Source: Helicobacteraceae bacterium
GTDB lineage: Bacteria; Campylobacterota; Campylobacteria; Campylobacterales; Sulfurimonadaceae
Direction of reading: 5' to 3'
Assembly: GCA_021163845.1 (NCBI GenBank)
Contig: JAGGTH010000080.1
Coordinates: forward strand, 1-44,810
Length of the DNA stretch: 44,810 bases
Positions within the stretch are counted from its first letter, which is position 1; every line of letters begins with the position of its first letter. The notes under the pieces are model-generated. The model searched no databases. It was given only the letters and a program-made list of their open reading frames with translations, and was not told where the DNA came from. The translations under genes were made by a program, and so were the position numbers. Positions 2,472-16,538 of this stretch are shown piece by piece.

Positions 2472-3884
2472 ATGGATACATTAAAAATTTTAATTGCTGA
2501 TAGTACAGAGGAGAACCGTCTCGTATTAAAGTCTATAGCAAAAAAGATGCAATGCTTTGATATTTTTGAAGCGCTCGATGGTATTGATGCGTTAGAGCTA
2601 ATTGCAATACACCAACCCCATATTATTATCATAGATGTGATGTTGCCACGTCTTGATGGATTTCATACGGCAAAACTTATCAAACTGCATTATCCGCAAA
2701 CTATTGTTATGGCAGTTACATCTATTATCGATCCAAATATGGAGAAAAATATGGCAAGTATAGGTGTCGCAGCCTATGTCCATAAGCCTATAGATAAAGA
2801 ACTTATCCATTTCAAACTCCAAAGCTTTCAGGCACTCCTTCACTCTCGAAAAAAAGAGTACAAACAAGTCTCAGTTGAAGAAGCTCTCAACCCTTTTAGC
2901 CTTGATATTCGTCATTTCAAGACAATTTTCACTATCACAAATTCCGAAGCGATGATGGACTTTGGTCTTTGGTTGCTCACACGATGTGAAGATGATATGA
3001 ATATCACCTGCCCTAAAATTGATATTACCGTAGAGTTGTTTTATGAACTTATGAGACAAAAACTCCGAAATAAAGAGTCTCTCTATATTATCGTTGAAGA
3101 GAGTTTTGTTGAAATATTTATCACATTGCAATTTGAGACAAGCATTGAGCTTCAAGCAAAAGCGAGTGCATTACAAAAAGAGCTTGATGAGCAATGTATG
3201 ATTAAAGACAATGCCGCTTGCATACGCTTGCGCTTACATCAAAAAGAAGATCTACAAGAGGAAAAGAAAATTATCCAAACAGTACAAAGTGAAACAGCTC
3301 CGACAAAGGTAGCTCCAAGTGAAACAAAAGATAAAAGTGAAACAAAAGATAAAAAAGTATTAGAAGGCAAAGACAAAGAGCTTTTACGCCAAAGTTTTGT
3401 GGAAAAGACCTCTGCGATAGATTATATCAGCGATATAGGCGGTGATGTTTTAGATGAGATCCGTGACTTAGAGAGTCTCGATGAAGAGTGGACACAAAAG
3501 CTCCATACCATTGAGCGAGAGCCCTCAACTCAGAGTCTTCACGATTTCATTGATAATGTTTTGGGGGTCTATGTCAAAGCGATTAACAATCTCTTTGAGT
3601 TTACGGCTTTAGGATATGCCCTCTTATCATTAGGATCTTTTCTCAAAGAAAATGCACAGCTCATCGTTGATGAACCCGCAAAACTAAAAACATTAGCAAT
3701 GCTTTTAGAACATCTAGGAGCAGATCTTACCTCTTGGAGAGAGCATATCTTTTCTCTCCAAGACACCGCAGATATACATTACCTCGATAGCTCTTTTTTC
3801 AGCTCATGTATGCAAATAGAGCAAATTATCGGAAATAAGGAGCTTGCAACAGACGATGACGATGACGGCATGGAATTTTTTTAA
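2472..3884 (+). CDS. Receiver-domain protein with uncharacterised output region
   Basis: Residues 1-120 form a CheY-like receiver with the phospho-acceptor at D55 (IIIIDVMLPRLDG) and the conserved Lys in VHKP. The usual acidic pair is reduced to one: D10 is followed by Ser. The rest of the 470 residues matches no output domain I recognise. There is a mixed region at 135-260, a low-complexity linker with a SETKDK repeat near 280-295, and a helical C-terminal part ending in an acidic DDDDD run and MEFF. No DNA-binding, GGDEF or HD motif is seen. The promoter motif and its place between the receptor pair and cheY suggest a signalling role in this chemosensory system. Confidence 0.75.
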   Translation: MDTLKILIADSTEENRLVLKSIAKKMQCFDIFEALDGIDALELIAIHQPHIIIIDVMLPRLDGFHTAKLIKLHYPQTIVMAVTSIIDPNMEKNMASIGVAAYVHKPIDKELIHFKLQSFQALLHSRKKEYKQVSVEEALNPFSLDIRHFKTIFTITNSEAMMDFGLWLLTRCEDDMNITCPKIDITVELFYELMRQKLRNKESLYIIVEESFVEIFITLQFETSIELQAKASALQKELDEQCMIKDNAACIRLRLHQKEDLQEEKKIIQTVQSETAPTKVAPSETKDKSETKDKKVLEGKDKELLRQSFVEKTSAIDYISDIGGDVLDEIRDLESLDEEWTQKLHTIEREPSTQSLHDFIDNVLGVYVKAINNLFEFTALGYALLSLGSFLKENAQLIVDEPAKLKTLAMLLEHLGADLTSWREHIFSLQDTADIHYLDSSFFSSCMQIEQIIGNKELATDDDDDGMEFF

Positions 3885-4054: not shown

Positions 4055-4441
4055 ATGGCAAAAAGGGTAATCATCGTAGATGATTCAAGAGCAGTTGTCG
4101 CAACTGCAGAGTTAGCACTAGAGGGGCTTATTACGAGCGGAGTGATTGAGTTTCAAGCTTATCTCAATCCGGCAGAACTTCTAGAAGCATTGCAAAACGG
4201 ATCAGAGAATTTTGATCTGCTTATTAGTGATGTCAATATGCCCGAGATGAATGGTCTTGATCTCTCTCGATACATAAAAAATGATGAGCGTTTTAAAACA
4301 AAACCGATCATCATTTTAACGACGGAGAGTTCAGAAGCGTTAAAAATGAAAGGCAAAGAGATTGGAGTTACAGGATGGATGGTCAAGCCATTCGCTGAAG
4401 AGAAGCTTGTGAAGTCAATCAAAATGGTACTAGGAGTCTAA
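4055..4441 (+). CDS. cheY: CheY-like response regulator
   Basis: This 128-residue stand-alone receiver carries the full phosphorylation set: acidic pair D9/D10, acceptor D59 in LLISDVNMPEMNG, the Thr pair at 89-90 and K111 in MVKPF. It should be phosphorylated by the CheA encoded downstream and carry the signal to a flagellar motor or another target. The ATG follows a good AAAGGAG site. It is the first gene of a tight run (cheY, cheW, mcp, STAS, cheA, cheR) with gaps of 9 bases or less. Its own promoter would have to lie within or before the palindromic element upstream, unless it is read through from the receiver gene. Confidence 0.9.
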   Translation: MAKRVIIVDDSRAVVATAELALEGLITSGVIEFQAYLNPAELLEALQNGSENFDLLISDVNMPEMNGLDLSRYIKNDERFKTKPIIILTTESSEALKMKGKEIGVTGWMVKPFAEEKLVKSIKMVLGV

Positions 4442-4443
4442 AT

Positions 4444-4938
4444 ATGGAACAAAATACAGCCCAATCCAGAAGAGAGCGCTATTTGACTTTCTTTTTGGGG
4501 GAGGAACAATACGGCATCGCCATTGATCGCATCAAAGAGATCATAGCGCTGATGAAGGTGACATACGTCCCAAAAACACCCCATTTTGTCAAAGGTGTTA
4601 TCAATCTACGAGGCTCGATCATCCCGATCATCGATACAAGATTACGCTTTGGGATGCCAGAGTGTGAGGCAGATATGCACACAGCGATCATCATCGTGGA
4701 AGTAGAAAAGGTCAATATCGGCTTTATCGTCGATAGGGTCGAAGAGGTGGCAAGCATAGAAAGCTCAAGTCTAGGGGCGGCTCCAAAATTTGGTAGCAAC
4801 GTCGATACCGACTTTATCTGCTCTATGGCACAGATCGAAGAGAACGTTGTGATGATACTTGACCTGCTCAAACTTTTTGAAGCAGATGAACTTGTGAGTC
4901 TAGAACAAATACAACAAACACAAACAAAAGGAGAATAA
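4444..4938 (+). CDS. cheW: CheW chemotaxis coupling protein
   Basis: This 164-residue protein has the CheW fold throughout: an N-terminal strand pair around LGEEQYGIAIDRIKEI, the motif VPKTPHFVKGVINLRGSIIP that typifies the family, and a second half ending in EENVVMILDL. CheW bridges the receptor tips to the CheA P5 domain in the cytoplasmic array. It starts two bases after cheY and ends one base before the MCP start, so translational coupling is likely. Nothing is missing relative to ordinary CheW. Confidence 0.93.
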   Translation: MEQNTAQSRRERYLTFFLGEEQYGIAIDRIKEIIALMKVTYVPKTPHFVKGVINLRGSIIPIIDTRLRFGMPECEADMHTAIIIVEVEKVNIGFIVDRVEEVASIESSSLGAAPKFGSNVDTDFICSMAQIEENVVMILDLLKLFEADELVSLEQIQQTQTKGE

Positions 4939-4939
4939 A

Positions 4940-6592
4940 ATGAAGTGGTTAGAAAATATGGTACTACAAACAAAGTTGATGTTACTCACAGGAGTGATGT
5001 TAATAGCACTTTTAGCTTTAGGTATGTTAGCCTATAGCACAACCCAAAAATGGGAAGATGGAATCGAAGAGATTGGAACAATTCGTGTGCCTTCATTGGC
5101 AGGACTTATGGATATGCGTATAGGAATCAATCAAGTAATCATTCAACAAAATCGAGTGCGTGGTACAAAAGGCAGTGAAAAAAGAAAACAAATACTTACT
5201 AATGCGATAGAGGAAATCGAGGGAGGTTTTCAGCGCTACGAATTGGGCTACAAACGCTATGCTCCTTTGCCACAAACTCCGCAAGAAGCGCTTGAATGGA
5301 AAAAATATGAAGAGGCTTTTGAAAAATGGCGTAAATTAAGCGATGAATTCACACACAATGTAATTTTGCCACTCTCTCAAATAGATGACACAGAGATAGA
5401 GCAAGTAGAAAACTACTTTTTAAAAATGACCTCTTTTATTGAGCAAAGTCGTCTACCTCGTGCTGTAGCGTTAGAGAGTATGAATTTTATCGCAAAAATC
5501 AATACAGATATAGCTGATAATGAAGTTCTCAAGGCTCAAACATCTGTTGCTTCAACTATTCAAATGACCATTACTATCGTCGTGATTGCATTTTTTATCT
5601 CTATTATACTTGCGACTTTAATTATTCGTTCTATAACGCGTTCGATCACAGGAAGTGTTACTTCTATCCGTGATGGTGCGATGCAGATCACATCCGCATC
5701 TGATCAAGTAGCGGCATCCTCTTCTTCTCTTGCACAAGGGGCGAGTGAGCAGGCATCAAGTGTTGAAGAGGTAAGTGCGACGCTTGAGGAATCTACAGCT
5801 ATCAACACACAAAATGTCGATAACGCACGCCAAGCAGATATCTTGGCAAAAGATGCAAATGACTCTGCACGTGCAGGCTATGAAAAAGGGGAACAACTCT
5901 CCCACTCTATGCATGCTATTACAGAATCAGCGGCAAAAATTTCAGGTATTATCAAAACCATCGATCAGATCGCTTTTCAAACCAACCTTTTAGCACTCAA
6001 TGCAGCGGTAGAAGCAGCGCGTGCAGGAGAACATGGACTCGGCTTTGCCGTCGTAGCAGACGAGGTGCGTAACCTAGCACAACGTGCAGCAGCAGCAGCA
6101 AAAGAGACCTCAGATATCATCCAAGAGGTCGTTGGTCAGATTCAAGAAGGAAATGAGATCGCTTTAGCGACCCATACATCCTTTCAAGAGATCGTAGAAC
6201 AATCGAAAAAAGTCTCTAACCTTATCGGTGAGATCGCAACGGCAGGAAAAGAGCAATCTGAGGGGATGACACAGATCAACCAAGCGATGGGTCAAGTAGA
6301 TGAAGTAACCCAACAAGTAGCGGCAAACTCAGAAGAAGCAGCAGCAGCGGCAGAAGAGCTCAATGCACAGGCATCTTCTATGATGGAGACGGTGCGTATC
6401 TTAGCGGCGATGGTAGGGATGCAAACAGATCAAGCACCATCAGGTGCAAAGAAGATGAATCTGCATCACTTAGACCCAGTGCCAGCTCTTGGAAAAAAGC
6501 AAGCAACACAATCAGCATCTAAACCTAAGTCGATTCCATCAAAAAACCAAAATATCTTTCCTCTTTCTGAGGACGACTTAAAAGAGTTCTAA
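4940..6592 (+). CDS. Methyl-accepting chemotaxis protein with four-helix-bundle-like sensor
   Basis: The 550-residue receptor has a first membrane helix at about 14-33, a helical periplasmic domain of about 170 residues resembling the 4HB_MCP class, and a second membrane helix at about 207-232. The coiled-coil signalling domain follows almost at once, with little or no recognisable HAMP. The hairpin tip (about 342-390, [27 protein letters not shown]) is fully conserved, so it should dock on CheW and CheA. The last 45 residues are a Lys/Ser/Pro-rich flexible tail ending DDLKEF. That resembles an adaptor-docking tail, although the aromatic residue of the classical pentapeptide is a Leu. The ligand is unknown. 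Confidence 0.9.
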   Translation: MKWLENMVLQTKLMLLTGVMLIALLALGMLAYSTTQKWEDGIEEIGTIRVPSLAGLMDMRIGINQVIIQQNRVRGTKGSEKRKQILTNAIEEIEGGFQRYELGYKRYAPLPQTPQEALEWKKYEEAFEKWRKLSDEFTHNVILPLSQIDDTEIEQVENYFLKMTSFIEQSRLPRAVALESMNFIAKINTDIADNEVLKAQTSVASTIQMTITIVVIAFFISIILATLIIRSITRSITGSVTSIRDGAMQITSASDQVAASSSSLAQGASEQASSVEEVSATLEESTAINTQNVDNARQADILAKDANDSARAGYEKGEQLSHSMHAITESAAKISGIIKTIDQIAFQTNLLALNAAVEAARAGEHGLGFAVVADEVRNLAQRAAAAAKETSDIIQEVVGQIQEGNEIALATHTSFQEIVEQSKKVSNLIGEIATAGKEQSEGMTQINQAMGQVDEVTQQVAANSEEAAAAAEELNAQASSMMETVRILAAMVGMQTDQAPSGAKKMNLHHLDPVPALGKKQATQSASKPKSIPSKNQNIFPLSEDDLKEF

Positions 6593-6593
6593 G

Positions 6594-6857
6594 ATGGAAT
6601 TCGACGGTGATGTCCTCACTATCGGACTGGATATGAATATCAAAGAGATTGAAGAGTTTGGAGAGTTTATCCAAGCTCGTTTAGAGTATTTGACAACTAT
6701 AGAGATCCAAGAGGGTACTGCTCTGCAAAGCAGTGCTCTTTTGAGCTTACTAGTAAGTCTAAAGCGTTCGCACACTCACTTAAACATCCCCTTTTTAGAG
6801 CGTGGATCGATGAGTTCGCAAACGCACGGAACACTACATTGGATACATTATGACTAA
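6594..6857 (+). CDS. Small STAS-like protein in the che operon
   Basis: This 87-residue protein begins one base after the MCP stop and overlaps cheA by 8 bases. Its layout, a short strand start MEFDGDVLTIGLDM, a helix, and a middle segment ALQSSALLSLLVSLKR, fits a STAS or anti-sigma-antagonist-like fold. In those proteins a Ser or Thr just before the second helix can be phosphorylated, and S47/S48 are candidates. Some accessory chemosensory operons do encode a STAS protein between the receptor and cheA. The assignment rests on pattern and place, not on a strong motif, so a different small adaptor is possible. Confidence 0.6.
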   Translation: MEFDGDVLTIGLDMNIKEIEEFGEFIQARLEYLTTIEIQEGTALQSSALLSLLVSLKRSHTHLNIPFLERGSMSSQTHGTLHWIHYD

Positions 6858-8925
6858 ACAAGAACAAGTCAAAGCAATTTTTATCGAAGAAGCGGGTGAG
6901 ATTATCGAAAAACTCGATATCAATATTATCCGTTTTGAAGAAAACTCTACCGACTTTGATCTACTCAATGAGATCTTTCGTGGAGTCCACACCCTCAAAG
7001 GCAATGCCAACGCATTTGGCTTTACACGCTTAGGCGAATTTGTACACCATTTTGAAGATATTCTCGATCATTATCGAAGCACGCATGAAAGTATAGAGAC
7101 ACACAATCTTGAACTTATCGTCAACAGTGTTGTGGTTATTCAAGAGGTGATGCATTGTGAGCTCAATGAGATCCAAGAGCTTCCAGACTCTTATCCAGAA
7201 TGTCTTGAAGAGATAAAAGCACTTCTTGCTTCAAAAAAAGGTGCTTGTGAAAAAGAAAAAGTTTTGCCTCCGACAGAGCAGATGAATGATCTCACAGCAG
7301 AGTTTGGCTCTGATATCACTCCCTCTATGGATGAACTTCTAAACCAGAGCATCCAAAAACACAAAAAGATGCAAACAGAGGACCTTAAGCTCTATAAAAT
7401 TGATCTTACTTTAGATAGCGATTGTTATACACGTGGGTTTGACCATCTGTTATTTTTAAAAATGTTACAAGAAAAATCTTCTGCTATGGAGAGTTTTTTT
7501 GAGATGCAAAATGTTGCAAAACTAGAAGCATTTCACGTCCATGAAAACAGTATTGGACTTGTTACATCCATTGTGCTGACACCACTAAACTTTGAAGAGA
7601 TCTGTGAATATTTTGAGTACCTTTTTGCACATGAGTACAAGGTAGAGCTCCTTGCTTATGAACCACAAGTTCAAGAAAAAAAAGACGAACTAACAGAGGT
7701 CACAACAAAAACAGTCGCTAAAAATAATGCCCCAGTAATGTCGAGCACCGCAAAATCAACGATACGCATCGACACATTGAAACTCGATGAGCTTTTTGAT
7801 TCTGTAGGGGAGCTTGTGATTGCCCAAAACTTTGTATCACAAAACGAAAAGATACATGCGATAGAAGATGAATCGATCAGCCGTACAATAGAGACCCTCT
7901 CTAAGATCACAAAACGGATCCAAGACAGGGTGATGAGCTTACGAATGGTGGCGATTCGTGATACATTTGACAAGATGAAGCGTGTTGTCAGAGATACCTC
8001 CAAAAAAACAGGAAAAGAGCTTCATCTTCATGTACTTGGTGAAGATACAGAGATCGATAAGACGATGATCGATAGTCTCTCTGATCCTCTTGTACATATC
8101 ATTCGTAATGCAATCGATCATGGGCTCGAAGCAGATGCCAAAGCACGACTTGCTGCAGGCAAAAAGGTAGAGGGTGTCATCACCCTCAAAGCGTATCACA
8201 AAAGTGGCAATATTGTCATTAGTGTGAGTGATGATGGGCGCGGTATCGATAAAGAAAAAGTGATACAAAAAGCTATAGAGCGCGGAGTTATTACAGGGGA
8301 TGAAAACCTCACAGAGAGCCAAGCTTTTAGCCTTATCATGCAACCTGGATTTTCTACCGCCGATACTATCAGTGATCTCTCAGGTCGAGGAGTCGGCTTG
8401 GATGTAGTGAAGACCTCTATCGAAAAACTCCGCGGCAAGATCGAAATAGAATCAAAACAAGGGGAAGGAACGACCATCTCTATGGTACTTCCTCTCACCT
8501 TGGCGATCATCGACGGAATGCTTGTACAAGTGGCGCAAGAGATCTATATCATACCTACACTCAGTGTTGTTGAATCATTTCGACCAGAACGTGATATTGT
8601 TCATGCTGTAAAAGGGAAAGGGGAATTTGTCAGTATGCGTGGACAGCATATTCCTGTGATCCGCTTAAGTGATCTCTTTGACTTAGAGACAGAGCATTTA
8701 GACCCTTGGGATGGAATACTTGTGTGTGTTGAAACTGAGGCAGGACGCATAGCGATTATGGTTGATGAGCTCGTAGGACGTCAGCAAGTTGTTATCAAAC
8801 CACTTGGTAAGGCACTTGCAAAACAACGTGAGATCTCAGGTGGTGCCATTTTGGGCAGTGGTGATATCGCCCTTATACTTAATGTTGAGGAGCTACGTCC
8901 TCTTATCGAGTCGGTTCATGCGTGA
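6850..8925 (+). CDS. cheA: CheA chemotaxis histidine kinase without a fused receiver
   Basis: Domains in order over 691 residues: an HPt (P1) domain with phospho-acceptor H47 in GVHTLKGNANAFG; a P2-like region at about 165-275; the P3 dimerisation helix pair beginning near 300 (IRIDTLKLDELFDSVGELV); an HATPase domain with N-box RNAIDHGLEA (about 418), DDGRGID (about 461) and GRGVGLDVV (about 512); and a P5 CheW-like domain from about 550 to the end. It autophosphorylates under receptor control and passes phosphate to CheY and CheB. Unlike classical Campylobacter CheA, it has no C-terminal receiver. The ATG at 6850 lies inside the STAS gene, and the stop overlaps the cheR start. Confidence 0.95.
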   Translation: MTKQEQVKAIFIEEAGEIIEKLDINIIRFEENSTDFDLLNEIFRGVHTLKGNANAFGFTRLGEFVHHFEDILDHYRSTHESIETHNLELIVNSVVVIQEVMHCELNEIQELPDSYPECLEEIKALLASKKGACEKEKVLPPTEQMNDLTAEFGSDITPSMDELLNQSIQKHKKMQTEDLKLYKIDLTLDSDCYTRGFDHLLFLKMLQEKSSAMESFFEMQNVAKLEAFHVHENSIGLVTSIVLTPLNFEEICEYFEYLFAHEYKVELLAYEPQVQEKKDELTEVTTKTVAKNNAPVMSSTAKSTIRIDTLKLDELFDSVGELVIAQNFVSQNEKIHAIEDESISRTIETLSKITKRIQDRVMSLRMVAIRDTFDKMKRVVRDTSKKTGKELHLHVLGEDTEIDKTMIDSLSDPLVHIIRNAIDHGLEADAKARLAAGKKVEGVITLKAYHKSGNIVISVSDDGRGIDKEKVIQKAIERGVITGDENLTESQAFSLIMQPGFSTADTISDLSGRGVGLDVVKTSIEKLRGKIEIESKQGEGTTISMVLPLTLAIIDGMLVQVAQEIYIIPTLSVVESFRPERDIVHAVKGKGEFVSMRGQHIPVIRLSDLFDLETEHLDPWDGILVCVETEAGRIAIMVDELVGRQQVVIKPLGKALAKQREISGGAILGSGDIALILNVEELRPLIESVHA

Positions 8926-9745
8926 GATCCAACTCAAACCCGAAGAGTTTGAGCTTTTTCGTCGTTATGTTTACGAAAAAGTGGGTATCTCACTCTCCGC
9001 GCAAAAGACAACGCTTATCAAAGGACGACTCAACAAACGGCTCAATCAACTCAATCTCACATCATTTCGTGCCTATTATGACCACTTGGTAGAAGATAAA
9101 AGTGGTGAAGAGCTTTCACTTTTCATCAGTGCTATCTCTACAAATGTGACCTCTTTTTTTCGAGAAAGTGCACAGTGGGAGTGGCTAAAAGGCTACCTAC
9201 CAAAGCTCATCGCTTCGAAGCAAAGAGAAAAAAAACTTCGTATCTGGTCAGCAGGATGTTCTAGCGGTGAGGAACCTTATACTATCTTGATGTTTTTACA
9301 ACAGAATATCCATCAGTTTCATGATTGGGATGTAAAAATCCTTGCGACCGATATTTCACATAAAGTGCTTTCCCATGCGATCGAGGGGATCTATGAAGCC
9401 AAACATGTGGAAACACTTCCAAAAGAGATCGTTCTTCGCTCTTTTGAAAAAGTACGTGAAGAAACGACAATTCGCTATAAAATCGCACCTCATCTTCAAG
9501 AGAAAGTGATGTTTCGACTTTATAACCTTGTGACCGACCCTTTTTTCTTTAAAAATAAATTTGACATGGTCTTTTGTCGTAATGTGATGATCTATTTTGA
9601 TGATCCAACCCGCCATGATCTTATCGAACGCTTTGCAAGCGTATTACCAAAAGGTGCTCCACTTTTTTTAGGAAGCTCCGAATCACTTACGAGTCATAAA
9701 GAGACACTCAAACTCTTAGGCTCTTCTATTTATCAAAAATTATAA
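8918..9745 (+). CDS. cheR: CheR chemoreceptor methyltransferase
   Basis: This 275-residue S-adenosylmethionine-dependent enzyme methylates receptor glutamates. The N-terminal helical domain (about 1-75, with KGRLNKRLNQL) and the SAM domain (SAGCSSGEEPYT near 110, LATDIS, and FCRNVMIYFDD near 225) are complete. I take the ATG at 8918, which overlaps the cheA stop by 8 bases. The frame runs further upstream but only within cheA coding sequence, and the protein from 8918 starts where CheR proteins usually start. With CheB and CheD encoded 5 kb downstream, the island has a full adaptation set. Confidence 0.93.
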   Translation: MREIQLKPEEFELFRRYVYEKVGISLSAQKTTLIKGRLNKRLNQLNLTSFRAYYDHLVEDKSGEELSLFISAISTNVTSFFRESAQWEWLKGYLPKLIASKQREKKLRIWSAGCSSGEEPYTILMFLQQNIHQFHDWDVKILATDISHKVLSHAIEGIYEAKHVETLPKEIVLRSFEKVREETTIRYKIAPHLQEKVMFRLYNLVTDPFFFKNKFDMVFCRNVMIYFDDPTRHDLIERFASVLPKGAPLFLGSSESLTSHKETLKLLGSSIYQKL

Positions 9746-9754
9746 GGGTATTCT

Positions 9755-11224
9755 ATGAAAATACTATTTCAACCATTAAGCACTATAGTTTTGTCCTTAG
9801 GCTTGATCGCAACAGCTGTTGTTGCAAACGAAAAGCTTCCAAAACATACATTAAAAGCAAATTCTCAAATAGTTTATAATGAAACTCCAAAGCAAGTTGA
9901 TAGTTTTGGCAAAATCTTTAGTGAGGGGATGTACTACGGACGCATACGATCTAACACATTTTATCTTGACTATAAAACAAATGACTCCACACACTCAGAC
10001 CATCTAACAAGTGGACTTGGTGCTTCTTTCATCGTAAAGAGTGCAAAATATGCAGATTTTGATTTTACTACAGGACTTTATGCGTCACAAGCCACATTTT
10101 GGGATCGAAACGACAATGTAGCCGATCTCAAAAAAGGAAAAGATGTGATGAGCAGATTTGATTATGCAAATCATGGTGATAAATATATGGCTGTTTTAGG
10201 GCAAGCCTATCTACAGTACTCAGGGATCAACTCTACAAAGATCTCCATAGGACGACAATTGGTTGAGACTTTTTATACAAAGTCAAATGATACAAAAATG
10301 TTTCCAAATACATTTGACGCCTTTGTCTTAGAGACCAAAGCACTAGCAAATACAAAAATCCAAGCAGCATATCTTTATGAGCAAAAACTTCGTGATCATA
10401 CAAAACCACACGCCATTCTCATGTACGGAGATGCGAACTCTACATCCAAAGCAAAACCCCAATGGAGCGAAAATGACGACTCTGCAATGCACAAAGGTTT
10501 GACATATACGGCATTAAAGGCTGCAGGAAAACCTACTGATGCACCGCTATTAGTGATGGATATCAAAAACAGCAGTATCGAAAATCTCAAACTCGATGCC
10601 TCTTTTTACAATGTGCCAGAACTCTTATCTCAAGCTATGCTAGAAGCAAACTACGAAATCGCTATGAATGGCTTTTCTCTCTCACCGGGCATCCGTTATA
10701 TACGACAGTTTGATAACGGTGCGGGAAGTGTTGGTGGCGCATCTTTAACTGGAAATACGCACGGGTACAAAAAAGCAGATTCACTCGACTCACAGATGAT
10801 AGCAGCAAAAATCGTCACAAAAATTGATAACTACAAGATAAATCTTGCATATTCTCATATTTTTGATGAAGCAGACCTTGTCACTCCGTGGAGAGGATTT
10901 CCAACAGCAGGCTACACACGCTCTATGGCACGCTATAACTGGAGAGCCAATACAAAAAGCTACCGTCTTGAAGTTGTCAGAAACGACAATGCAAATGGGA
11001 TATATAAAGATATCTTTACACAAGCTTCTATCCTCTTTACAAATGCCGATGAAAACAAAAAAGCTAAAGATGAGATCTACTACTATGTAGGATTGATTCA
11101 AAATATACCAACTATGATTGATCTGCAATGGCGTTTACGATTGGGCTATGTTCAGTATACAGATGCTGATGAGAGTGATAATAATGAACTCGATGCACGC
11201 TTTGAACTGAACTATCTGTTTTAA
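9755..11224 (+). CDS. OprD-like outer-membrane porin
   Basis: The 489-residue protein begins with a signal peptide (about 1-24, ending VVA). It continues with alternating short amphipathic strands typical of a beta-barrel and ends in a terminal Phe (NYLF), the usual outer-membrane assembly signal. The opening GMYYGRIRSNTFYLDY and the motif SIGRQLVET are like the OprD-type porins common in Campylobacterota. The substrate cannot be read from sequence. It starts nine bases after the cheR stop, apparently in the same transcript as the chemosensory genes, which is an unusual place for a porin. A related porin is encoded at 12987. Confidence 0.82.
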   Translation: MKILFQPLSTIVLSLGLIATAVVANEKLPKHTLKANSQIVYNETPKQVDSFGKIFSEGMYYGRIRSNTFYLDYKTNDSTHSDHLTSGLGASFIVKSAKYADFDFTTGLYASQATFWDRNDNVADLKKGKDVMSRFDYANHGDKYMAVLGQAYLQYSGINSTKISIGRQLVETFYTKSNDTKMFPNTFDAFVLETKALANTKIQAAYLYEQKLRDHTKPHAILMYGDANSTSKAKPQWSENDDSAMHKGLTYTALKAAGKPTDAPLLVMDIKNSSIENLKLDASFYNVPELLSQAMLEANYEIAMNGFSLSPGIRYIRQFDNGAGSVGGASLTGNTHGYKKADSLDSQMIAAKIVTKIDNYKINLAYSHIFDEADLVTPWRGFPTAGYTRSMARYNWRANTKSYRLEVVRNDNANGIYKDIFTQASILFTNADENKKAKDEIYYYVGLIQNIPTMIDLQWRLRLGYVQYTDADESDNNELDARFELNYLF

Positions 11225-11259: not shown

Positions 11260-12621
11260 ATGAGCAAACTGATTCCTGCAACAACCCAAAAAGAAGCTAC
11301 CTTTCATGCAAATGAGCTTTTTTTCTCTATTACAGATCACAATAGCACTATCATCTCAGGTAATGATGTATTTATCCGTGTTAGTGGATATAAAAAAGAG
11401 GAGATCATCGGTCATTACCATAATATTGTACGTCATCCTGATATGCCAAAAATTGTTTTTAAACTCCTTTGGGATTTTATCCAAGCACAAAAACCTATTA
11501 TTGCCTATGTAAAAAATCGTGCAAAAACTGGGGAGTATTATTGGGTTCTAGCCGCGGTATTTCCCCTTAAAGAATCCTACGTCTCTATAAGAATAAAACC
11601 AGATACAAAACTCTTTCGTGCAGCTCAAGAGTTGTACGGCAAACTCCTTGCAATAGAATCACAAGATAATATGGCAAAAAGTGAAGAGATGCTGCCACTT
11701 CTATTACAAGATCTCGGCTACAAAAGCTATGAAGCGTTTATGAGCGATGCTTTTTTAAATGAGCTCAAAGCACATAAAAAAAGTATACCTCCCTTAGAGA
11801 TTGCTACACAAACAATACAATCAGAGTTTGTCGAGTGTCTTGAAAACATTCAAATGCATACAAACGCACTCATGCACAAATACGATGAGTGGTTTGATAA
11901 GATCGATCTCTTTTTAGAGATAAAGACAAATTTTGAACAACAAAGTTTTCTCTTGCGTCAAATAGCTTCTGAGATCATTTTTTTATCTCTCAATGCTTCT
12001 ATTGCCTCGTATCAAGTACTCAATGGGGGCGAAACATTTGCTACTTTAGCACATGATGTTCGTATAAATGCCAAGCAAAATAATGATCTTATCTCAGAGA
12101 TCGATACTATCATTCAAGCTGTCTCTCTTTCTCTGAATGAACTTATCTTTTGTGTTTGCAGTATACGTCTACAGAGTGAACTTCTCAACTATTTTATTGA
12201 CGAACTTTTGAGTGAAAATGGCGACATAGACACAAATGAGATAGAGAGTAATATATCGACCCTTCTCGCACTCATCACAGAGTATTCCAACAAAACAAAT
12301 ACTCTACAACTTGAACTACAAAAACAGATGAAAAAGGTACTTGATTTTCTTTTGCACTTAGAGCAACAGATGATGTATTTGGGATATATCCAAGTATTTG
12401 GCATCATAGAGTCAGCCGACAACTCTGATAAATCTCTTGATTTTGAAGAGATCTTCTCTCAGCTTAAAACACATATTCAAAAAACATCCGATGCCCTTTG
12501 TATCTTGCAAGAGAATGGAACAAGTTTTGATACACAAAATGGCTCACTTCTCAAACAAGCAAACCAAACCAAACAGCTTTTAACCTCTCTATATGAATGT
12601 GTGGATGCTATCAAGGTATAA
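11260..12621 (+). CDS. Soluble PAS protein fused to a degenerate MCP signalling tip
   Basis: Residues about 15-110 of 453 form an Aer-type PAS domain (GNDVFIRVSGY, HNIVRHPDMP, YYWVLAAVF), closely like the one encoded at 829. A long helical region follows. At about 236-275 it reads FLSLNASIASYQVLNGGETF and then ATLAHDVRINA. This lines up with the MCP tip [20 protein letters not shown] then [11 protein letters not shown], but has lost the charged receptor contacts. There is no membrane helix. I infer a cytoplasmic redox sensor that descends from an Aer-like receptor and may no longer bind CheW and CheA normally. The ATG at 11260 is preceded by TAGGAAAG. The 35-base gap to the porin upstream suggests cotranscription. 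Confidence 0.75.
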   Translation: MSKLIPATTQKEATFHANELFFSITDHNSTIISGNDVFIRVSGYKKEEIIGHYHNIVRHPDMPKIVFKLLWDFIQAQKPIIAYVKNRAKTGEYYWVLAAVFPLKESYVSIRIKPDTKLFRAAQELYGKLLAIESQDNMAKSEEMLPLLLQDLGYKSYEAFMSDAFLNELKAHKKSIPPLEIATQTIQSEFVECLENIQMHTNALMHKYDEWFDKIDLFLEIKTNFEQQSFLLRQIASEIIFLSLNASIASYQVLNGGETFATLAHDVRINAKQNNDLISEIDTIIQAVSLSLNELIFCVCSIRLQSELLNYFIDELLSENGDIDTNEIESNISTLLALITEYSNKTNTLQLELQKQMKKVLDFLLHLEQQMMYLGYIQVFGIIESADNSDKSLDFEEIFSQLKTHIQKTSDALCILQENGTSFDTQNGSLLKQANQTKQLLTSLYECVDAIKV

Positions 12622-12986: not shown

Positions 12987-14225
12987 ATGGCATTTATAGC
13001 ATTAAAGACAATCCTACTCACAACTCTCCTAGCGATAGTAGCACTCGGTGATGAAGTTGTACTAAGGGGTGAACCTTCTCAAGTTCAGGGACTTATCCGC
13101 GCAGCATATATCGATCAAAACAATCTTCACTCTACAGATACTTATGCAAGCTCCATTGGTGGGATCTTAAAATATGAAACTGCCCCTTTGTATGATCTCC
13201 AGTTTGGATTGGGTGCCTATGTATCACAAAAAGTACATCCGCTTACAGGTTCTTTTGCACAGCAAGAAGCGAATGGAGATTTTTTTGCACAAGACACAGG
13301 ATCTTACACCTATATAGGAGAGGTCTATGCTCAGTATAAGAGCGAAGATCTCACAATACGTATCGGTCGCCAAAATATTGAGACACCACTCCTAGCTCCT
13401 GATGATATACGGATGCACCCAAACACTTTTGAAGCAGCTTTTGCAACTTACAAAGGTCTTCACGAGACAATATTGAGTGCTGGATATGTAGGACGCTGGG
13501 CGGGGTATGACTCTGGAGGAGATATCTCAAAATTTAAAAAACTTGCAGGGGGAAAAAGCAAGGGAGTAGCCCTTATAGGTATACAGAATAGTTGTGTCAA
13601 AAATCTGACTTTGCAAGGATGGTACTACAATATGGATAAATTTGCTGATGCTTTTTATTCGGACATCGTGTATGAGATACCTTTTTATGCGATCGCTAGT
13701 GTAGAACTTAACGCTCAGTTCGCTCTCTTTGATGAAAAAAAAGATGCTTTTGATAGTGCAACGGGACTTTATAACATCCCATCAAATATTAACGGAGAGA
13801 TCTATGGCTTTGCAACATCTCTTCACACCAATATCTTGACACTCCATGGCGCATATAATCAAACATTCAACGCAACAGATAAAAAGATCAGTAATGGATT
13901 TGGCGGATGGCCTTACCTTACTTCTATGGAGGAGGTCTCGATAGCAGAGTTTACAGATGCAAAAGCCTATAAACTCTCCACGCACCTTGATATAGATGTT
14001 TTTGGACAAAACCGATTGCATATCCACGCAGATTATGCAGACTTTCAAAATAAAACGAGTAAGACCCACGTCAAAGAGTTTGATAGTGTTGCCACCTATA
14101 CGCTCGGTGAGACAATGAATATGGAGCTGAGTTATGCAAATGTTGATGATATCAATAACAATACCAAGTACAATGGTAGCTATGAGCGCTTGCTTGTCCG
14201 TCTTAATTACAAGTTTACGAGATAG
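12987..14225 (+). CDS. Second OprD-like outer-membrane porin
   Basis: The 412-residue protein has a signal peptide (about 1-21, LLTTLLAIVALG) and beta-barrel-like alternating strands. It shares features with the porin at 9755, including TIRIGRQNIETP and a fragment with GGWPYLTSMEE comparable to the RGFPTAGYTRSMAR of the first. The C-terminus is NYKFTR, so the Phe is third from the end, not last. It is shorter than the first porin by 77 residues. It starts 36 bases after the AGATAC block of motif copy D and lies two bases before the kinase-like gene. Substrate unknown; a nutrient or attractant uptake role tied to taxis is inferred from context. Confidence 0.8.
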   Translation: MAFIALKTILLTTLLAIVALGDEVVLRGEPSQVQGLIRAAYIDQNNLHSTDTYASSIGGILKYETAPLYDLQFGLGAYVSQKVHPLTGSFAQQEANGDFFAQDTGSYTYIGEVYAQYKSEDLTIRIGRQNIETPLLAPDDIRMHPNTFEAAFATYKGLHETILSAGYVGRWAGYDSGGDISKFKKLAGGKSKGVALIGIQNSCVKNLTLQGWYYNMDKFADAFYSDIVYEIPFYAIASVELNAQFALFDEKKDAFDSATGLYNIPSNINGEIYGFATSLHTNILTLHGAYNQTFNATDKKISNGFGGWPYLTSMEEVSIAEFTDAKAYKLSTHLDIDVFGQNRLHIHADYADFQNKTSKTHVKEFDSVATYTLGETMNMELSYANVDDINNNTKYNGSYERLLVRLNYKFTR

Positions 14226-14227
14226 AT

Positions 14228-15028
14228 ATGAAAGAACTTGAAGAGATCGCTTTTTTAAGCCATAAGATCTTAGATCTCAACAAACAACTCATTGAGAGTG
14301 AAAAAATAAAATCTCAATTTCTTTCACTCGTAGCGAGTAAACTCAACAACCCTATGACAGCACTTTTGGGTCTTATTCCCCATCTAGACCCTCAAAGATC
14401 TTGTTCTCAAGAGGTTTTTGATCTCGTGCATCAAGAGGTATTACATTTGCATTTTCAGATTCAAAACCTTGTCATGGCAGCAGAGATAGAAGGTGGTATG
14501 TTGCAAATAGACTATGCATCTGTAACTATTCAAAGCATAATAGAAGATGTACTCAGAGATCTTCAATATCTCATTGATGCACAAGGGATTACTATTACAT
14601 TATCTAATACACTTTCATCACCTTTTATTACAGACCCTAAAAAACTCTATCTTATTCTCAAAAACATCATTGCCAATGGATGTAGCTATGGAACAAAGGG
14701 AGGTGTTATTGATATTTCTATCACCAAAAGCAAATATATCTTAACGCTAGAGATCAGTAATCAAGGGGATGGTCCTCGTGTAGAGTTTAAGCCCCAAGTT
14801 TTTCAGAGGTTCGCCCAGACTGCTGAGGGAGATCATGGTTTGGGGATAGGACTCAGCATAGCAAAAGAGTTATGTGGTTCTTTAAATGGGGTACTCGATT
14901 ATAAAGTTGCCAAGAAAACGGTTACATTTGTCGTAAGCTTGGACCTATTATCTAAAATTCCAAATTCTGATGCTTATGGCTCTGATGAATTTTTATTTGA
15001 ATCATTTGATAGTGCGATCGAGCTCTAA
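14228..15028 (+). CDS. Histidine-kinase-like protein lacking the phospho-accepting histidine
   Basis: This 266-residue soluble protein has a short coiled coil, a DHp-like helix (about 24-50, KSQFLSLVASKLNNPMTALL) and an HATPase domain. The ATPase has an N-box-like segment (LKNIIANG, about 145-152) and GLGIGLSIAKEL (about 203-214). In ordinary kinases the aligned stretch reads SHELRTP; here it is ASKLNNP, so the histidine is replaced by Ser (residue 37). The ATP-lid glycines are kept. It may bind ATP and act as a modulator or as a partner of another kinase, but not as a conventional His kinase. Its stop overlaps the cheD start by one base, tying it to receptor adaptation genes. Confidence 0.8.
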   Translation: MKELEEIAFLSHKILDLNKQLIESEKIKSQFLSLVASKLNNPMTALLGLIPHLDPQRSCSQEVFDLVHQEVLHLHFQIQNLVMAAEIEGGMLQIDYASVTIQSIIEDVLRDLQYLIDAQGITITLSNTLSSPFITDPKKLYLILKNIIANGCSYGTKGGVIDISITKSKYILTLEISNQGDGPRVEFKPQVFQRFAQTAEGDHGLGIGLSIAKELCGSLNGVLDYKVAKKTVTFVVSLDLLSKIPNSDAYGSDEFLFESFDSAIEL

Positions 15029-15504
15029 TGATACACGGAAGTTCAACATTTATCCATGTTGGTCAAGTACATGTTGACTCTGCTCCTAGAGCCATCTCAA
15101 CAGTACTCGGTTCATGTGTTGCAGTTTGCCTCTATGACCCTTATTTGGGTATTGGTGGGATGAACCATTATCTTTTACCTTTTTGGAATGGTAATGGACT
15201 GCAAACGCCAAAATATGGAAATATCGCTATTCCAAAACTCATAAACTTGATGACAAGCCAAGGATCTCAACCAAAGCACATAGAAGCAAAGATATTTGGT
15301 GGTGCTATGATGAATTGCAATGAGAATGAAGTGATGATGATAGGTCGCAAAAATATACTTGTTGCACATGATATCTTAAAAGAGTATTCCATCTCAGTGA
15401 TCGCAGAGGATACAGGAGGACGACATGGACGCAAAATTCAATTTGACTTAGCACATGGGAAAGTTCTCTTAAAATATGCCTTGCAAAAAAATATTTCAAA
15501 CTAA
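15028..15504 (+). CDS. cheD: CheD chemoreceptor glutamine deamidase
   Basis: This 158-residue protein has the CheD catalytic Cys in STVLGSCVAVCLYDP, followed by the catalytic His in GGMNHYLLPFW. Both are conserved in deamidases that convert receptor Gln to Glu and in CheD proteins that partner CheC. The C-terminal GGRHGRKIQFDLAHGKVLLK is also characteristic. The ATG overlaps the previous stop codon (TAATG) and the gene ends eight bases before cheB. No cheC is seen in this window, so CheD probably serves receptor modification here. Confidence 0.92.
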   Translation: MIHGSSTFIHVGQVHVDSAPRAISTVLGSCVAVCLYDPYLGIGGMNHYLLPFWNGNGLQTPKYGNIAIPKLINLMTSQGSQPKHIEAKIFGGAMMNCNENEVMMIGRKNILVAHDILKEYSISVIAEDTGGRHGRKIQFDLAHGKVLLKYALQKNISN

Positions 15505-15512
15505 GGAAATTT

Positions 15513-16538
15513 ATGCCTATACGTGTATTAATTGTAGATGATAGTGCTACTGCAAGAGCAGTACTCCATGATATCTTAGACTCAGATCCAGATATAGTAG
15601 TCGTTGGAACTGCCTATGATGCTTTCATCGCACGAGACAAGATTATCGAACTTCGTCCCGATGTTATTTGTTTGGATGTAGAGATGCCCCGAATGGACGG
15701 GATCACTTTTTTAAAACGCCTCATGCATTATATGCCGCTTCCTGTTGTTATGGTCTCTTCTCTTACACAATCGGGCGCAAAAACTACACTCGCAGCACTC
15801 GAGGCGGGAGCTGTCGATTTTGTGGCAAAACCACACTCTTATATCTTTGATGGCAAAGAGCAGATGCGCAATGAACTTATCACGAAGATCAAGTCTGCAT
15901 CAAAAGCAAAAGTTATTCAGCATACTTTACGAGAGTCTATACAAGTAAATACCTCTTCTCTTTTGGAAACAACGAATAAAATATTGGCAATAGGAGCTTC
16001 TACGGGAGGTACTGAGGCACTCAAAGATGTTCTTATGAGACTTCCACGTAATGCACCGGGAACAGTAATCGTACAACATATGCCCGCTGATTTTGTAACA
16101 CCATTTGCAGAAAGGCTCAATACTTTGTGTTCTATAGAAGTGAGAGAAGCATGCAATGGTGATTCTATCATCCCAGGTGTTGCACTTATTGCCCCAGGAG
16201 ATTATCACATGGTTGTGAGACGTTCGGGAGCACGCTATTATGTAGAGATAGGGAGTGGAGAAAAAATATCTGGACACCGCCCCTCAGTTGATGTGATGAT
16301 GCACTCCGTAGCTAAAATTGCAGGTGCCAATGCTGTTGGAGTGATTCTAACAGGGATGGGAAGAGATGGGGCAAAGGGTCTCCTCGCTATGCGTAATGCA
16401 GGCGCAAAAACAATTGGTCAAGATGAGATGAGTTGCGTTGTTTACGGTATGCCAAAAGTAGCTTTTGAGCTTGGTGCCGTAGAGCGACAACTCCCACTCC
16501 ATAAAATAGCCGATGGGATAGTAGAGTCTCTTTCGTGA
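15513..16538 (+). CDS. cheB: CheB methylesterase with N-terminal receiver
   Basis: The 341-residue protein has a receiver domain (acidic pair D9/D10, acceptor D55 in VICLDVEMPRMDG, KPHS after the last strand). A linker follows, then the methylesterase domain with the nucleophile S163 in GASTGGTEAL, the His in IVQHMPADF and the Asp in LTGMGRDGAKGL. It removes methyl groups from receptors when phosphorylated by CheA. Campylobacter CheB usually lacks the receiver, so this full-length form supports a distinct chemosensory system. A GGAAATTT ribosome site precedes the ATG. It is the last gene of the island. Confidence 0.95.
   Translation: MPIRVLIVDDSATARAVLHDILDSDPDIVVVGTAYDAFIARDKIIELRPDVICLDVEMPRMDGITFLKRLMHYMPLPVVMVSSLTQSGAKTTLAALEAGAVDFVAKPHSYIFDGKEQMRNELITKIKSASKAKVIQHTLRESIQVNTSSLLETTNKILAIGASTGGTEALKDVLMRLPRNAPGTVIVQHMPADFVTPFAERLNTLCSIEVREACNGDSIIPGVALIAPGDYHMVVRRSGARYYVEIGSGEKISGHRPSVDVMMHSVAKIAGANAVGVILTGMGRDGAKGLLAMRNAGAKTIGQDEMSCVVYGMPKVAFELGAVERQLPLHKIADGIVESLS

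Follow-up and report, generated by a model that had tools for sequence, protein, structure and literature searches.

A conserved pseudo-histidine-kinase encoded next to cheD in Campylobacterota, a probable repurposed chemosensory regulator

The gene that precedes cheD in a chemosensory cluster of a Helicobacteraceae bacterium encodes a small protein of the histidine kinase type in which the phospho-accepting histidine is replaced; this protein has probably been repurposed to regulate the chemosensory pathway and is unlikely to be the product of a decayed gene. The reading that we favor, to which we assign a probability of roughly 40%, is that this conserved pseudo-kinase binds a receiver, most likely dephosphorylates it and works with CheD. 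The window (the whole stretch of DNA that was analysed, 44,810 nucleotides) contains the gene and its relevant sites at the following positions:

14228..15028, + strand: pseudo-histidine-kinase gene, 266 aa (open reading frame, Pfam, model, orthologue alignment)
14336..14338, + strand: codon of Ser37, AGT, at the place of the phospho-accepting His (orthologue alignment)
14348..14350, + strand: codon of Asn41 (His+4), the phosphatase position in HisKA proteins (alignment; role described in PMC3510030)
14837..14857, + strand: GLGIGLS ATP-lid motif, residues 204-210 (translation, alignment)
14963..15025, + strand: C-terminal tail, residues 246-266, predicted to be disordered, with conserved F257 and E265 (model, alignment)

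The open reading frame starts with ATG, and its stop codon, TAA at 15026-15028, ends on the A that opens the cheD ATG at 15028, the overlap already seen in a preliminary description of this DNA. That description also placed a serine in the histidine position of the H-box ASKLNNP (residue 37; the H-box in full is FLSLVASKLNNPMTALL) and an intact lid motif GLGIGLS downstream of it, and both are borne out by the codons and residues listed above. Pfam HATPase_c matches the protein at 1.5e-14 (54.8 bits, above the cut-off of 26.4) and HisKA at 5.1e-4 (20.5 bits, under the curated cut-off of 26.9); the HisKA hairpin is nevertheless present in the predicted structure, and among the Pfam matches up to E 1 there is no CheC-family domain. 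The AlphaFold2 model, made from a 33-row alignment with a mean pLDDT of 77.4, predicts two long helices (2-53 and 59-88) followed by a HATPase-like alpha/beta part, with residues 246-266 at low confidence. Its top fold rows are DivL (Z 22.2, rmsd 5.5 over 223 aligned residues), a BceS-containing entry (21.8) and ThkA (21.4), which lie within one Z unit of each other and count as ties. The sequence of the DivL structure 4q20 also matches the protein (E 7.3e-10).

Relatives were collected from several sources. The first searches covered 60 relatives and 298 genomes of the window's class, 27 of which, including the window's own, hold close matches at E <= 1e-22. When the alignment served as query, matches of 267 bits or more came up in 31 of 46 selected genomes; next in score are two partial relatives, at 173 and 153 bits, followed by long-frame kinases, none above 147 bits. 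A scan of a species collection, using two short peptide patterns only, returned 43 loci, of which 37 (L145-L181) show the pseudo-kinase gene followed by cheD. All but one of these 37 carry Campylobacterota or epsilonproteobacterial names, the exception being a MAG named 'Proteobacteria', while the remaining six loci are weak partial matches from other phyla. In all, 70 neighborhoods were examined, 69 of them with a complete copy (240-345 aa; genomes present in both sources are included) that together give 60 distinct sequences. Dropped before counting were kinases longer than 345 aa, the two pieces of one interrupted copy and two fragments. The interrupted copy (L045, 6223-8063) is split by transposase-like open reading frames in one genome of the Sulfurospirillum group. 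One fragment (L196, 2937-3529) is a partial relative that ends at a contig edge, follows a CheY-like gene and carries Asn in the His position, and the other (L197, 2756-3355) is a partial relative without the hairpin.

Across the 60 distinct orthologues, the register of the His site is anchored by the conserved block FLSL...(F/L)N(N/D)P, and the residue at this site is Asn in 55, Ser in four, Tyr in one and His in none, while the H-box His is present in all 47 other kinases, some of them duplicates, that were drawn from the first-search loci and the same neighborhoods as controls (one of these was misplaced by the H-box pattern, and its checked sequence reads HELRTP). Since no orthologue has the His and every control kinase does, its loss is, as read from the alignment, family-wide, Asn being the usual residue and Ser a minority one. 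The preliminary description, which spoke of a kinase with Ser for His, thus stands for the window and for the presence of a pseudo-kinase type in a che cluster, but not for the family. It had also pointed out that homologues with His at residue 37 would indicate a local mutation; none was found, and local mutation or decay is ruled out by 60 intact orthologues without the His. A displaced phospho-His is ruled out as well: no conserved one exists, the best alignment column holding His in 21 of the 60.

The remaining motif positions are not uniformly affected. The residue at His+1 is Glu in 32 orthologues, Val in 16 and another in 12, so that the kinase-competent pair of His and an acidic residue occurs in 0/60. 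At +4 there is Asn in 56, the window's protein included, and Asp in four, and Pro at +5 is present in all 60. The N-box Asn and the lid Gly are both invariant (60/60), and the G1 position is Asn in 35 and Asp in 25. Judged from the alignment, the residues that would serve kinase activity are lost or relaxed and those that would serve phosphatase activity are mostly kept. Asn and Pro at +4 and +5 are, however, common in active kinases too, and this, like the Asp at +4 in four orthologues, counts against a phosphatase reading.

The second constant feature is the neighboring gene. The genes of the window's cluster are arranged as follows:

2472..3884, + strand: receiver protein (2472 protein) whose C-terminal domain is helical and whose tail reads DDDDDGMEFF (Pfam, alignment, model)
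4055..4441, + strand: CheY-like receiver
4444..4938, + strand: cheW
4940..6592, + strand: cluster chemoreceptor ending in FPLSEDDLKEF, tail at 6557-6589 (Pfam, tail reading)
6850..8925, + strand: cheA (Pfam)
8918..9745, + strand: cheR, with the start at 8918 chosen by us (the listed open reading frame runs from 8789)
15028..15504, + strand: cheD (Pfam CheD 6.6e-28), overlapping the pseudo-kinase stop by one base
15513..16538, + strand: cheB, receiver plus methylesterase (Pfam CheB 1.1e-64)

In all 69 complete copies cheD is the next gene downstream, which confirms the conserved linkage that the preliminary description had proposed to look for: the two genes overlap in 44 copies, lie 0-15 bp apart in 23, 17 bp apart in one and 302 bp apart in another (L169), where a small open reading frame intervenes. 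The linkage extends to the two diverged second clusters (L037 and L086; genomes G056 and G246). Upstream, the neighbor is cheR in 50 copies, a degenerate PAS/MCP gene in 12, a 2472-like gene in four, a CheY-like gene in two and a kinase in one. Pfam CheD is found in all 31 carrier genomes versus one of 15 non-carriers, the latter hand-picked from the first list rather than random. Eight longer or partial cheD regions were inspected, seven in carriers and one in the exceptional non-carrier. Six of them, five in carrier genomes, are cheR-cheD-cheB clusters without an intervening gene; of the other two, L195 has no cheD-labelled open reading frame and L189 has a 509-aa open reading frame labelled CheB beside cheR. 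Given these six clusters without a pseudo-kinase, the pseudo-kinase is linked to one type of cheD cluster.

Several other genes in and around the cluster deserve mention. Between cheR and the pseudo-kinase, the window encodes a PAS protein (11260-12621) with a degenerate MCP signalling domain (22.5 bits versus a cut-off of 34.6), a possible pseudo-receptor, and a gene of this type occupies the same place in 12 of 69 relatives. Two OprD-like porin genes (9755-11224 and 12987-14225) also lie there, and no porins occur at that place in the relatives whose neighborhoods were drawn. An 87-aa open reading frame (6594-6857) that overlaps the start of cheA has no Pfam match up to E 1, and many relatives carry a recognizable counterpart of some 85-100 aa ahead of cheA. 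In many clusters of the Sulfurospirillum group (L077, L079-L083 and similar), a normal PAS histidine kinase with the H-box HELKTPLNAI is encoded beside a 2472 homologue, downstream of cheB.

A third feature of the family is its C-terminal tail, in which F257 is conserved in 55 and E265 in 58 of the 60 orthologues, the final residue being F, L, M or I in 58. By sequence, the tail appears to resemble those of the cluster chemoreceptor and of the 2472 protein throughout the family, with the window's copy a fair match. The receptor ending FPLSEDDLKEF is the sole case among the 21 MCP open reading frames of the genome, one of them seemingly truncated, and 21 of 24 distinct receptor tails from the neighborhoods end in EF. 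When scored against receptor tails, the median pseudo-kinase tail exceeds about 99% of 530 other distinct open reading frame tails, and the same is true of the median 2472-group tail; the window's pseudo-kinase tail is weaker, with 17, 5 and 7% of the others scoring as high over 5, 6 and 7 residues, respectively. Endings of the form E-[FLMI] occur in 49 of 51 pseudo-kinase tails versus six of the 530 others, one of the latter coming from a fragment of the interrupted gene. Sulfurospirillum shows the likeness best, with FMFDD..MKEF next to FPL.E.DLKEF in the receptor; it is absent from the two diverged second clusters, where the copies close with ..DSFMFD(N) and not with E-[FLMI]. In a pairwise alignment, the window's CheR is gapless against Salmonella CheR in the beta-subdomain region, which we take to be a mark of tail-binding CheRs, and CheR1 of P. 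aeruginosa is three residues shorter there. Receptor tails of a similar kind tether CheR2 and CheB2 in Pseudomonas (PMC7698151). The published receptor-type tether motif is the pentapeptide x-[HFYW]-x2-[HFYW] (PMC7184735), from which the endings of both the window's pseudo-kinase (SAIEL) and its receptor (DLKEF) depart.

Given the residue pattern, the cheD linkage and the receptor-like tail, a receiver phosphatase or sensor that works with CheD is the simplest circuit. In such a circuit, autophosphorylation on the usual His would be excluded and the HisKA hairpin would dock a receiver of the same pathway, be it CheY, CheB or the 2472 protein. The retained Asn at +4 would most likely strip the phosphoryl group from this receiver, with a bound nucleotide as cofactor, and the tail would dock at the place where the receptor tail docks. 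Acting with CheD on the adaptation branch, the pseudo-kinase would make receiver phosphorylation feed back on adaptation and would occupy the position next to CheD that belongs to CheC in Bacillus. Of the three candidate targets named in the preliminary description (CheA, CheD and the 2472 protein), CheD is the one that linkage favors; the 2472 protein is encoded in part of the neighborhoods only, but its C-terminus is similar, and nothing specific singles out CheA. A role for the +4 Asn is consistent with CrdS, in which this residue is required for phosphatase activity only, kinase activity alone depends on the acid at +1, and a His-to-Ala exchange lowers phosphatase activity without abolishing it (PMC3510030). 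In PleC, however, H610A abolished both activities (PMC3510030), which speaks against our reading, as do the Asp at +4 in four orthologues (in CrdS an acidic residue at this position leaves no significant phosphatase activity, PMC3510030), the replacement of the G1 Asp by Asn in 35 of 60 orthologues, the window tail that is only a fair match, the diverged second clusters without the E-[FLMI] ending, and the fact that linkage to cheD is no proof of contact. Other phosphatases may also exist. CheC-family matches over the cut-off occur in 16 of 46 genomes (10 of 31 carriers and six of the 15 others); there is none in the window's genome, and those in 10 of the other 30 carriers do not lie near the pseudo-kinase cluster, both of which suit a pseudo-kinase in the place of CheC. 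CheZ is over the cut-off in 0/46 genomes, and weak CheZ matches in 12 of 46, the window's genome included, say little. A further scenario, which we consider unlikely, is that the tail mimics the receptor's own and draws CheD (or CheR or CheB) off the receptor, with the pseudo-kinase in CheC's place, sensing or removing the receiver's phosphoryl group. If true, receptor, pseudo-kinase and 2472 protein would all be marked by a single C-terminal address code that serves the whole chemosensory pathway.

It is possible, though we hold this only tentatively, that the protein has no enzymatic activity and acts like DivL as a scaffold or sensor that binds the phosphorylated receiver and relays its state to CheD or CheA. 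DivL heads the structural rows of the model (tied with the BceS entry and ThkA), and the kinase residues are gone while the hairpin is retained. The precedent of Bacillus CheC points the same way: CheC competes with receptors for CheD, CheY~P improves this binding, and the CheD-binding role outweighs a secondary phosphatase activity (PMC3513319). By analogy with this precedent, CheD binding may matter more than enzymatic activity in the pseudo-kinase too. However, a pure scaffold could dispense with the nucleotide-site Asn and Gly, which are invariant here, as DivL reportedly does with its ATPase domain (PMC9491836), and it does not account for the +4 Asn in 56 of 60 orthologues.

The retained ATP-site motifs would also suit a split kinase that acts in trans, phosphorylating another protein such as the 2472 protein on the invariant His of its C-terminal domain, and we regard this as quite improbable. 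The C-terminal domain of the 2472 protein has an invariant Trp and a D-x-H-Y-x-D motif in 33 aligned rows, together with a DDxEFF-like tail, and its His is conserved in 37/37 proteins with the motif intact and invariant in the 33 rows. Its model (pLDDT 86) suggests a plain Hpt domain, with CheA P1 domains as the five best fold rows (Z 11.9-13.1, the next at 10.3), but comparing its profile with that of CheA P1 from the window lends no support (2.4%), a profile search of PDB sequences up to E 10 returned no Hpt protein, and the model places the invariant His in a loop, outside a helix. Moreover, an open reading frame with the 2472 motif is present in only about half of the neighborhoods (35 of 70, several being short contigs), and many of the 2472 homologues adjoin a normal kinase. 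Hardly any weight falls on a kinase gene degenerating without function: Ser, Tyr and a variable +1 residue do occur, and one copy is interrupted by transposase-like open reading frames, but 60 distinct intact orthologues with invariant motifs, a fixed position and a conserved tail argue against it.

To our knowledge, few pseudo-histidine-kinases have lost the His as a fixed trait of an entire lineage, and DivL of Caulobacter is the standard case. The pseudo-kinase shares with DivL a HisKA/HATPase fold without phospho-His and differs from it in the Asn or Ser at a site that is presumably Tyr in DivL (Tyr in 1/60 here), in its cheD linkage and receptor-like tail, and in the lack of a PAS region within the 266 aa of the window's protein. 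The mode proposed for DivL is receiver-state sensing (PMC4211667), and CCNA_03265 of Caulobacter is another kinase said to lack the His (PMC11481889). With the bifunctional HisKA kinases CrdS and HK853, the pseudo-kinase has the hairpin, Asn at +4, Pro at +5 and the N and G boxes in common, but the family lacks their phospho-His (0/60) and a sensor domain. In Bacillus, the gene order is that of the CheC partner followed by cheD; the pseudo-kinase shares with CheC of Bacillus and Thermotoga this place beside cheD and the proposed role of a CheD-controlling phosphatase or sensor, but the CheC fold is unrelated and the pseudo-kinase has an ATP-type domain instead.

Clusters of the F7/F8 type have the same content of cheY, cheW, receptor, cheA, cheR, cheD and cheB (PMC7184735), to which the window's cluster adds the pseudo-kinase between cheR and cheD. 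Extra chemosensory classes with one or two receptors of their own are described in Sulfurimonas and Sulfurospirillum (PMC9321776); the terms 'histidine kinase' and 'HATPase' are absent from the main text of that paper as available to us, and its figure may show the gene unnamed. In the literature as available to us, no recognizable description exists of a pseudo-kinase gene with fixed Asn, tail and cheD linkage. Like the receptor pentapeptides of the NWETF/GWEEF type, the tail of the window's receptor is an acidic-hydrophobic C-terminal peptide carried by a receptor that belongs to the pathway; at position 2 it has Leu, and the window's pseudo-kinase a non-aromatic residue, and it is unusual to find such a tail on a kinase-like protein. 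The parts are of known kinds; what would be new is their combination of fixed Asn, tail and cheD linkage. It would add a compact pseudo-histidine-kinase family with a natural genetic partner, cheD, in lineages that include culturable Sulfurospirillum species, and it offers a way to test by what means CheD is controlled where CheC does not adjoin, and whether a receptor-type C-terminal tail is an address on non-receptor proteins.
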